Shown piece after piece: positions 427 through 6,654 of a DNA stretch of 64,000 nucleotides. The translations under genes and the position numbers were made by a program. Positions within the stretch are counted from its first letter, which is position 1. The number at the start of each line of letters is the position of its first letter. The notes beneath the pieces were generated by a model. The model worked only from the letters and a program-made list of their open reading frames with translations, searched no databases and was not told where the DNA came from. Location: assembly GCA_029781115.1 (NCBI GenBank), contig JAKOXG010000011.1, forward strand, positions 62,001 to 126,000. Reading direction: 5' to 3'. The stretch comes from Candidatus Cloacimonadota bacterium (GTDB taxonomy: Bacteria; Cloacimonadota; Cloacimonadia; Cloacimonadales; Cloacimonadaceae).

Positions 427-1356
427 ATGCGTAAGATGAGATTGGTTCTGATCTTTGTTGCTGCTGTTATGCTGTTTGTAACGGCTACGAGTTGTGAAAA
501 GACCACCGAGCCCAAGGTTACGCCCGGTAAGATGATCCGCGTCCCCGGCGGCACTTTCACTATGGGCAATACCAGAGGTGTGGTGGATGAATATGGGGAT
601 GAATATGATGATGAACTGCCGACGCACAGCGTCACGCTGAACACTTTTTATATCGGCAAGTATCTGGTGACCCAGGCGGAATACTCCAAATACATGCAGC
701 CAGGATCGCCTTGGAAAGCCAAATTTGGCCTGGGAAAGAACTATCCCGCCTACAATGTCTCCTGGTATGCAGCCATCAAATACTGCAACCTGCGCAGCAT
801 TGCAGAAGGTCTGACTCCCTGCTACACGCTGCTTGGAAGCACAAATCCCGCTGACTGGGGAGAAATTCCTGATGATGACTATGATCCAGACATCAGTACT
901 TGGGACGAAGTCATCTGCGACTTTCACGCCAACGGCTACAGATTGCCCACCGAGGCGGAATGGGAATATGCCGCCCGCGGAGCTACCAACAACCCTGATT
1001 ATCTTTACAGCGGTTCAGACGATCCCGACGCCGTGGCCTGCTATGGCAATGCAGATGAGGTGGGTTGGGGCAGCCGTCCTGTCGGATCCAAAGCCCCTAA
1101 CGGGCTCAAAATTTACGACATGAGCGGCAACATCGAGGAATGGTGCTGGGATTGGTATCACTGGAGATACTACGAAGACAGCCCGCAGGACAATCCTACC
1201 GGTGCAAGCCAAGCAGAATCCTGGGAACGGGTTGCCCGTGGCGGTTGCTGGATTTTCGTTGAGGAAGCCTGTCGTGTATCCAAGCGTTCGGGCAACGATC
1301 CATCCAACATCACCCTAATCAACGGTTTCCGTCTCTGCAGATCAAGTATTGACTGA
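427..1356 (+). CDS. SUMF1/FGE-domain lipoprotein, paralog 1
   Basis: This 309-aa protein is predicted to be a lipoprotein. A hydrophobic signal ends in TATSC with Cys23 as the lipidation site, followed by a charged spacer. The remainder is one formylglycine-generating-enzyme/SUMF1 domain with a C-type-lectin-like fold: VPGGTFTMG at 39-47, then YCNLRS, TPCY, RLPTEAEWEYAARG, YDMSGN, EEWCWDW, RGGCW and GFRLCRS at the end. It does not show the clustered Cys pair of true FGE enzymes, so a structural or ligand-binding role is more likely than sulfatase activation. An in-frame upstream extension exists, but GGAGG at 416-420 supports ATG 427, and the fifth paralog carries the same leader out of frame. 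First of six tandem paralogs. Confidence 0.9.
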   Translation: MRKMRLVLIFVAAVMLFVTATSCEKTTEPKVTPGKMIRVPGGTFTMGNTRGVVDEYGDEYDDELPTHSVTLNTFYIGKYLVTQAEYSKYMQPGSPWKAKFGLGKNYPAYNVSWYAAIKYCNLRSIAEGLTPCYTLLGSTNPADWGEIPDDDYDPDISTWDEVICDFHANGYRLPTEAEWEYAARGATNNPDYLYSGSDDPDAVACYGNADEVGWGSRPVGSKAPNGLKIYDMSGNIEEWCWDWYHWRYYEDSPQDNPTGASQAESWERVARGGCWIFVEEACRVSKRSGNDPSNITLINGFRLCRSSID

Positions 1357-1394
1357 CGCCGATCCGGCTCACGACTTCAAATTGGTATTCATGC

Positions 1395-1428
1395 CTTGCT
1401 CAAGCGGTTGCCATGCCACTTGAACAGG
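1395..1428 (+). repeat. Intergenic 13-8-13 hairpin, copy 1
   Basis: Inverted repeat with 13-nt arms (1395-1407, 1416-1428) around an 8-nt loop ending CCATG. It lies 39 nt after the stop of paralog 1 and is followed by TTTT. Two C-A mismatches make this a weaker stem than copy 3. It may be a partial terminator or an RNA-processing or stability hairpin between cistrons. Confidence 0.6.
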
Positions 1429-1470
1429 TTTTCACCGCTATAAAAACCATAGCACTAATGGAGGTACAAA

Positions 1471-2370
1471 ATGCGTAAGATGAGATTTGCCCTGATCTTT
1501 GTAGCTGTTGTTATGCTCGTATTAACAGCGATGAGTTGTGGCAAAAAGCCCACCGAACCGACGGTTACCCCCGGTGAAATGGTCCTTGTCCCCGGCGGCA
1601 CTTTCACCATGGGGGATACGAGAAATGTGGGGCTTTACGGCGCACTGCCGGCTCACACAGTCACCCTGAATTCTTTTTACATCGGCAAATATGAGGTAAC
1701 TCAGGGTGAGTATTCCAAGTATATGCAACCGGCACAGGAGTGGACAAGCGAATATGGTTTGGGGGACACATATCCTGCTTATGGTGTCTCCTGGTATGCC
1801 GCCATCAAATACTGCAACCTGCGGAGCATGGCAGAAGGGCTTACCCCCTGCTACAAGATATTAGACTCTACAAACCCCGTTCATTGGGGAGAAGTTCCCA
1901 ACACTTTCGATGATACTTGGGATTCCGCCACCTGCAATTGGAAAGCCGGTGGCTACAGATTGCCCACCGAAGCGGAATGGGAATATGCCGCCCGCGGGAG
2001 AACCAACGACCCCGATTATCTTTACAGCGGTTCAGAGAACATCAATGCCGTAGCCTGGTATTATGGTAATTCCGGAGGCACTTCGCATCCTGTGGGCACC
2101 AAGGCACCCAATGGCATCAATCTCTACGACATGAGCGGCAATGTCGTGGAATGGTGTTGGAACTGGGAAGACTTTGAGCCCAGCGGCACTGACCCGCAGA
2201 CCGATCCCACCGGCCCGGATAACGGCTACCTTCGCATACAGCGTGGTGGTGACTGGGAATGCGATGAAAGTGGCCCAGAATACTGTAGCATATCAACGCG
2301 TCGCTTCGTCCATCAACAAAGAGCCCATTTTACCTACGGTTTCCGGCTCTGCCGCTCTAAGATTGATTGA
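1471..2370 (+). CDS. SUMF1/FGE-domain lipoprotein, paralog 2
   Basis: A 299-aa lipoprotein: signal peptide with lipidation Cys23 (TAMSC), a Lys/Pro/Thr spacer, then one SUMF1-type C-lectin-fold domain carrying VPGGTFTMG, YCNLRSMAEGLTPCY, RLPTEAEWEYAARG, YDMSGN, VEWCWNW and a C-terminal GFRLCRS. The stretch between RGGDW and GFRL differs strongly in length and sequence from the other paralogs, while the framework is nearly the same. GGAGG at 1461-1465 sets the start. The gene lies 114 nt after paralog 1 with no obvious promoter of its own, so the two are probably co-transcribed from the promoter at 272. The anchored location is probably the outer face of a membrane (inference). Confidence 0.9.
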   Translation: MRKMRFALIFVAVVMLVLTAMSCGKKPTEPTVTPGEMVLVPGGTFTMGDTRNVGLYGALPAHTVTLNSFYIGKYEVTQGEYSKYMQPAQEWTSEYGLGDTYPAYGVSWYAAIKYCNLRSMAEGLTPCYKILDSTNPVHWGEVPNTFDDTWDSATCNWKAGGYRLPTEAEWEYAARGRTNDPDYLYSGSENINAVAWYYGNSGGTSHPVGTKAPNGINLYDMSGNVVEWCWNWEDFEPSGTDPQTDPTGPDNGYLRIQRGGDWECDESGPEYCSISTRRFVHQQRAHFTYGFRLCRSKID

Positions 2371-5618: not shown

Positions 5619-5687
5619 GGCCTGGTTGGTATCGATACCGGTTGCGATACGGCCATGACTCATTATTATATCTATATGTTATCAAGT

Positions 5688-5721
5688 CTTGCTCAAGTGG
5701 TCACCATGCCACTTGGGCAGG
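5688..5721 (+). repeat. Intergenic 13-8-13 hairpin, copy 4
   Basis: Arms 5688-5700 and 5709-5721 pair with a few wobbles around the loop TCACCATG. It is located 69 nt after the stop of paralog 5 and 33 nt before the ATG of paralog 6. The arm sequence CTCAAGTGG/CCACTTG and the 8-nt loop match copy 3. Confidence 0.65.
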
Positions 5722-5754
5722 ATTTAATCATTAAATATGTACTGGAGGAACATC

Positions 5755-6654
5755 ATGCGTAAGATGAGATTAATACTGATCTTTGTCGCTGCTGCCATGC
5801 TCATTTTGACATTAGTGGGTTGCAAGGATGAGAAAAAGCCCACCGAACCGGATATAGACGCTCCGGCTGGAATGGTTTATGTCCGTGGCGGCACCTTCAC
5901 CATGGGTGGTACAAGAGATGAGGATAATGAGCACATACCGCCTCACAAAGTCACCTTGTCCCCTTTTTTCATCGGCAAATATGAGATCACTCAGGCTGAG
6001 TATACCCAATTCATGCCGCCGGTGGAGGAATGGGTAAGCGATTTTGGCTTGGGGGATAACTATCCTGCTTACGGAATATCCTGGTATGAGGTCATCAAAT
6101 ACTGCAACCTGCGCAGTATTGCAGAAAGCCTTACTCCCTGCTACACGGTAAACGGAAGCACAAATCCCGCTGACTGGGGAGAAGTTACCGCAGAATCCCT
6201 GGAAACCTGGAACGCTGCTATCTGCAACTTTAGCGCCAACGGCTATAGAATGCCCACCGAAGCCGAATGGGAATACGCTGCCCGCGGAGCTACCAACAAA
6301 CCGGATTATCTTTTCAGCGGTTCAGACGATTTCCAAGCTGTGGGATGGTTTGCTGATAACAATATCGGAGGAACCATCAATCCTGTAGGAGGCAAAGCAC
6401 CCAACGGTATCGGTACTTACGATATGAGCGGCAACGTCAATGAATGGTGCTGGGACTGGTTTGACGAGACATATTACACCAACAGCCCGCAGAACAATCC
6501 TACCGGTCCGGAATCTGGCATACTTCGGGTAGTGCGTGGTGGTAACTGGCACTTTTATTCGGGTGTCTGTTATGTGTCCAACCGCTACCACTTTGATCCG
6601 GGTGCCAGCAGCATACTCAATGGATTCCGTGTCTGCAGGTCTAAGATTGATTGA
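5755..6654 (+). CDS. SUMF1/FGE-domain lipoprotein, paralog 6
   Basis: A 299-aa lipoprotein with lipidation Cys23 (TLVGCKD) and one SUMF1-type domain: VRGGTFTMG, YCNLRSIAESLTPCY, RMPTEAEWEYAARG, YDMSGN, NEWCWDW, RGGNW and GFRVCRSK. GGAGG at 5744-5748 supports ATG 5755 over the in-frame ATG at 5737. It is the last member of the cluster, and its stop is followed within 11 nt by the hairpin array at 6665-6898 instead of the 13-8-13 hairpin found after other members. Its C-terminal ligand-face segment is again unique. Any enzymatic role is doubtful for the reason given for paralog 1. Confidence 0.9.
   Translation: MRKMRLILIFVAAAMLILTLVGCKDEKKPTEPDIDAPAGMVYVRGGTFTMGGTRDEDNEHIPPHKVTLSPFFIGKYEITQAEYTQFMPPVEEWVSDFGLGDNYPAYGISWYEVIKYCNLRSIAESLTPCYTVNGSTNPADWGEVTAESLETWNAAICNFSANGYRMPTEAEWEYAARGATNKPDYLFSGSDDFQAVGWFADNNIGGTINPVGGKAPNGIGTYDMSGNVNEWCWDWFDETYYTNSPQNNPTGPESGILRVVRGGNWHFYSGVCYVSNRYHFDPGASSILNGFRVCRSKID

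Follow-up and report, generated by a model that had tools for sequence, protein, structure and literature searches.

A tandem array of six TvpA-like lipoproteins in a Cloacimonadota genome: kin of diversity-generating retroelement targets, apparently not written by the retroelement

Six lipoprotein genes standing in a row in the genome of a Candidatus Cloacimonadota bacterium raise the question of whether their variable C-terminal segments are written by a diversity-generating retroelement (DGR) or diversify in another way. The window, i.e., the whole analysed stretch of 64 kb, corresponds to C10:62001-126000 of a draft genome (G000) of 2.25 Mb that is 99% complete. A first-pass annotation described the cluster as six tandem lectin-fold lipoproteins, and this description holds. 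The genes w1-w6 are six intact open reading frames at 427-6654, all on the plus strand and encoding about 295-309 residues each (Table 1), in which a lipoprotein-like signal is followed by a single FGE-sulfatase domain. The PF03781 profile spans the whole domain in every copy (positions 3-254/255, E from 2e-41 to 3e-49). A hydrophobic N-terminus with a cysteine at position 23 or the aligned site can be read from the sequence in 6/6 proteins, and the Cys pattern is common to all. Genome-wide, 16 FGE-sulfatase domains were found together with one short fragment match at C7:44777-44899, which is the template repeat of a retroelement.

Table 1. Genes of the array, their hypervariable segments and the intergenic hairpins (positions in the window)
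Feature	Positions	Strand	Evidence or remark
w1, FGE/C-type-lectin-fold lipoprotein, 309 aa	427..1356	+	PF03781 E=1.6e-48
w1 hypervariable segment CWIFVEEACRVSKRSGNDPSNITLIN	1246..1323	+	alignment, w1/v2 comparison
Hairpin of type CTCAAGTGGTnnCCATGCCACTTGAGC, after w1	1399..1425	+	none expected in shuffles
w2, FGE-fold lipoprotein, 299 aa	1471..2370	+	PF03781 E=1.7e-46
w2 hypervariable segment, 29 aa class	2251..2337	+	
Related hairpin after w2, T-rich tail, terminator-like	2443..2470	+	
w3, FGE-fold lipoprotein, 300 aa counted from shared MRKMR start	2685..3587	+	PF03781 E=9.4e-42
w3 hypervariable segment, 29 aa class	3474..3560	+	
Hairpin of type CTCAAGTGGTnnCCATGCCACTTGAGC, after w3	3654..3680	+	
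w4, FGE-fold lipoprotein, 295 aa	3723..4610	+	PF03781 E=5.1e-47
w4 hypervariable segment	4506..4583	+	
w5, FGE-fold lipoprotein, 299 aa	4719..5618	+	PF03781 E=2.1e-41
w5 hypervariable segment	5508..5585	+	
Hairpin of type CTCAAGTGGTnnCCATGCCACTTGAGC, after w5	5692..5718	+	
w6, FGE-fold lipoprotein, 299 aa	5755..6654	+	PF03781 E=2.9e-49; AlphaFold2 model
w6 hypervariable segment	6544..6621	+	

Variability in these proteins peaks in the segment between RGG and GFR. Among w1-w6, this segment has a mean pairwise amino acid difference of 0.70 (framework 0.35, signal 0.41), and no other window of equal length along the gene varies as much (permutation p = 5e-5). The framework was initially thought to be almost unchanged, which was an overstatement, since its pairwise identity among the six copies is 61-71%. 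It was also stated that the segment differs in each copy both in sequence and in length; this is true of the sequence, but the lengths fall into only two classes, 26 residues (w1, w4, w5 and w6) or 29 residues (w2 and w3).

The rates inside and outside the segment, the comparison of which had been proposed as a check, can be estimated from w1 and v2 of the genome G005, an ortholog pair with 79% amino acid identity and the sole clear one for this purpose. Non-synonymous codon changes were found in 13/26 codons of the segment and in 41/253 codons outside it (p = 2e-4). The corresponding dN values are 0.32 and 0.10, while dS does not rise in the segment (0.30 versus 0.45 outside), and therefore it is amino acid change that is raised, not overall divergence. 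The segment is the part with the greatest amino acid divergence between copies, and in the w1/v2 pair its dN is threefold that outside. As dN in the segment is close to dS (dN/dS about 1, from one ortholog pair), diversifying selection and lost constraint are inseparable.

The C-type-lectin (FGE) fold, expected from the beginning, was supported by the PF03781 profile and by structural comparison. A profile of the six proteins searched against known structures gave TvpA (2y3c) with E=1.8e-54, formylglycine-generating enzymes with about 1e-29 and PorK with about 1e-22. The AlphaFold2 model of mature w6 has pLDDT 84.6 when built with a broad alignment; an alignment of ten close homologs gave 47.7 and that model was discarded. 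The accepted model matched 2y3c in Foldseek with E=1.3e-23 and was superimposed on TvpA (VIA) with Z 33.0 and 2.2 A over 256 residues, whereas FGE enzymes and their relatives gave Z 22-25. Judged by these comparisons, TvpA, a retroelement-varied lipoprotein of Treponema denticola, is the closest solved structure to the array proteins. The variable region of TvpA comprises residues 285-329 (PMC6328139), and the array segment aligns to it, in agreement with the earlier suggestion that the segment is the very region varied by DGRs.

The catalytic cysteine pair CxxxxC of formylglycine-generating enzyme, located in the RGG-x-W segment, is not kept in w1-w6. In 5/6 proteins the second residue after W is F, Y or D, and the second cysteine alone is kept; in w2 the first cysteine is present at this place, but with a 3-residue insert. 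The TvpA-like fold together with the lost two-cysteine site makes non-catalytic ligand binding the most likely role of the six proteins, and they would most likely be displayed on the cell surface. From the fold and family we infer that the RGG-to-GFR segment would form the ligand-binding face, with a different partner for each copy, and an array of such binders is plausible. It is very unlikely that these are structural or enzymatic FGE-fold lipoproteins, either part of a PorK/GldK-like ring or formylglycine-generating enzymes, with a segment irrelevant to binding. PorK is indeed an FGE-fold lipoprotein and gives a match, but TvpA is far better than PorK or FGE both by sequence and by structure, the cysteine pair needed for the enzymatic variant is gone, and a ring subunit is ill suited to six diverging copies.

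The reverse transcriptase and template repeat that were to be sought elsewhere in the genome are both present on contig C7. A complete DGR occupies C7:44771-56786 of G000 (L038 4771-16786) and includes a reverse transcriptase (RT), bAvd, a template repeat and three caspase-FGE targets. RT, Avd and the template repeat lie at C7:44771-46356, outside the window and unlinked to the array, and this RT is the only reverse transcriptase match in the genome. The template repeat is AAC-rich and reads RGGSWNNNATNCRVANRNNNNPYKGNNNNVGFRLC. Two of the three targets depart from the template at 0/76 and 4/76 non-A bases, compared with 13/35 and 16/35 adenines. The first target, C7a, carries a one-base deletion inside the variable repeat, resulting in a frameshift and the loss of the GFR end. 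Two chitobiase-repeat-FGE genes on contig C13 (L039 5805-9629, minus strand) match the C7 template at 84-92% of non-A bases; the third positions of their segments show 0.20-0.26 mismatch to the template, and the C13 frameworks differ from the C7 targets by about 0.5. So far as sequences can tell, the C13 pattern is compatible with homing in trans as well as with origin from a displaced cassette, the latter option being considered because C13a is followed by a broken, decayed bAvd start.

Two minor observations concern other places in the same genome. An FGE segment on contig C20 (L043 about 3134) shows a non-A mismatch of 0.14 to the template type of genomes G003 and G033 and 0.36 to the template of its own genome, and is possibly a leftover of another DGR. 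In the window, 69 bases at 7763-7831 are 81% identical to DNA adjoining the template repeat on C7 (CAGTCGTCAGT-type repeats) and probably represent a dispersed repeat.

DGR action on the six genes was put forward earlier as a hypothesis, and non-A mismatch, NNY codons and third positions all testify against it. In its direct form, the hypothesis has the C7 DGR acting in trans on all six genes at present and rewriting their segments from its template repeat. In favour of this are the presence of RT, bAvd and an FGE-type template in the same genome, the collinearity of the segment with the template reading RGGSWNNNATNCRVANRNNNNP..NNNNGFRLC, and the C13 genes, which show that unlinked genes of G000 can track the template. 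However, w1-w6 mismatch the templates of G000 and five relatives at 0.18-0.40 of non-A bases, where cis targets show 0-0.05 and C13 targets 0.08-0.16, and the 3' identity block shared with the template is broken in the array genes. The share of NNY codons at variable positions of the array is 0.74 versus 0.64 elsewhere (p=0.037), a weak excess that is not significant when only amino acids allowing either ending are counted (0.75 versus 0.69, p=0.38); FGE proteins encoded at DGR loci have 0.87 versus 0.63 (p=1.6e-10). At third positions, the array segments are 0.29-0.62 away from the templates, which is like the distance of frameworks from target proteins (0.39-0.56), with one mild exception, w1 versus the G002 template (10/34, 0.29). 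Of the 13 changed codons in the w1/v2 segment comparison, 9 end in C/T in each copy, while a share of at least 0.93 is expected if they had been DGR-written since the split (p=0.01), according to a simple two-state decay model with an assumed AAY template; an AAR-rich template is conceivable. Within the limits of such tests, the array genes can be set apart from current DGR targets, and their being rewritten today from the C7 template is extremely improbable. The array proteins and the C7 DGR targets are members of one protein family, and the weak NNY excess together with the low third-position distance of w1 to the G002 template could be traces of old DGR action.

The tree, built without the segment and having many weak inner branches, places w2-w6 in one clade and pairs w1 with v2, a gene on G005 contig C17 (support 98). 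The array lipoproteins group together with support 99, inside a larger group (support 98) that also holds the C13 targets, an orphan repeat on G005 contig C1 and a cis target of G020. The flanks of the array are syntenic with G005 (84-87% identity), where v0 is situated at the position of the window array and v1-v3 lie across a 2.7 kb syntenic block from v0. Such shifted copies mean that the array turns over between related species. No DGR-type RT or template was found by these searches in G005, a 99% complete genome carrying v2, and a second RT or template could have escaped notice in the gaps of draft genomes. Maintenance of the cluster by duplication and exchange, as was supposed, can be accepted in part: duplication is supported by the common clade of w2-w6, but exchange was detected only in the signal-peptide region of w3/w4 (codons 13-31), the sole globally significant gene conversion tract. 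Gene conversion of the segments between copies was considered and rejected (w2/w3 in the segment, global p 0.16).

Summarizing these data, we regard as probable, on sequence evidence, an array of TvpA-like surface binders that are kin to DGR targets and would now diversify by duplication and substitution, not by DGR writing. The array probably represents a lineage-specific family of tandem genes whose products are lipoproteins of the TvpA kind with a non-catalytic FGE-type C-type-lectin fold. Their segments would change as the genes duplicate and acquire ordinary point substitutions, with selection either relaxed or mildly diversifying, as the w1/v2 pair suggests. The ancestors of the genes were probably DGR targets that later lost contact with the template, a step that this mechanism does not require; that the array descends from live DGR targets is likely rather than certain. 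In one version of this history, to which we give nearly an even chance, the segments are fossil variable repeats, written by an older template and frozen once contact was lost. The nesting of the lipoprotein clade with the C13, G005 C1 and G020 genes, the graded series from cis targets through C13 and the G005 orphan repeats to the array genes, the weak NNY excess, and the NNY-rich repeats existing in G005 without RT and template are all in favour of it. Against it are the patchy backbone support in the tree and the fact that NNY falls from 1.0 to 0.74 only after roughly one or more substitutions per third-position site, when a written segment looks the same as one never written. In another version, rather unlikely in our opinion, the array genes were never targets, and members of an FGE-lipoprotein family that was older and variable by nature were later taken over by the DGR as targets. 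Arrays without a DGR do occur (G005), such FGE proteins are widespread in the family, and the segment is a surface region of the fold that may vary by itself, but the nested position of the lipoprotein clade speaks against this. A standing repertoire cycling with the DGR, in which copies escape, duplicate as fixed binders and may become targets again beside a cassette, seems improbable.

Conserved hairpins stand after w1, w2, w3 and w5 of the array (Table 1). They were also found after v0, v2 and v3 of G005 and after two tandem non-FGE lipoproteins with the same signal peptide in G000 (C7:72144-72170 and 73502-73528), and a similar stem sits within the bAvd coding start. The hairpin of phage-type DGRs has a 7-10 bp stem and a GRNA loop and lies 4-34 bp after the variable repeat (PMC3240598). 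The array hairpin was rejected as a DGR homing hairpin: it is located about 39 bp or more past the stop codon, has no GRNA loop, and is carried by the non-FGE lipoproteins at C7:72-74 kb as well. Perhaps it acts in mRNA end formation or processing.

In comparison with known systems, the array resembles TvpA and other DGR-variable lipoproteins of T. denticola in the FGE-type fold over the whole mature protein (2y3c), the lipoprotein signal and the same C-terminal place of the variable segment. T. denticola has several unlinked variable lipoproteins per genome, some of them in strains without the DGR core (PMC4891356). Unlike that system, the array bears no significant adenine-template imprint and consists of six tandem copies far from the RT. 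With the C7 and C13 targets of its own genome it shares the FGE domain family and the variable segment, but those are caspase-FGE or chitobiase-repeat-FGE proteins matching the template at 84-100% of non-A bases. The array of G005 (v0-v3 and v9), from the same genus, has the same signal, fold, hairpins and variable segment, and differs in copy number and position. PorK/GldK and formylglycine-generating enzymes have the FGE fold as well, and PorK is also a lipoprotein; their similarity to the array is lower, and the catalytic pair of the enzyme has disappeared from it.

Kinship with DGR targets need not mean being DGR-written, and for one genome this question is answered here. The NNY, non-A and third-position tests tell apart live targets, distant targets, orphan repeats and unlinked paralogs, and the same three tests are applicable across genomes. 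Several Cloacimonadota genomes were documented to contain DGRs with FGE-type templates, with the template tracked by genes on a separate contig; no literature linking DGRs with Cloacimonadota by name was found, Cloacimonetes being mentioned only as a member of the FCB grouping. The array is a good worked example within a known kind of system, not a new kind.

Several related loci were found in other genomes. The orphan variable repeats of G005, on contigs C1 and C80 (L099 and L098), show strong NNY codons and resemble a template at their non-A bases. In G003, a 1767-aa open frame on contig C53 (L102 4395-9695) has five FGE domains in a row with a different segment in each, which is an array fused into one polypeptide. 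Viral contigs yielded mostly distant relatives (27-38% identity) and one at 53%. The latter, at 82-947 of L149 (IMG/VR, classed as viral), is a frameshifted FGE lipoprotein with a segment rich in Y and G, situated near repressor- and transposase-like genes.
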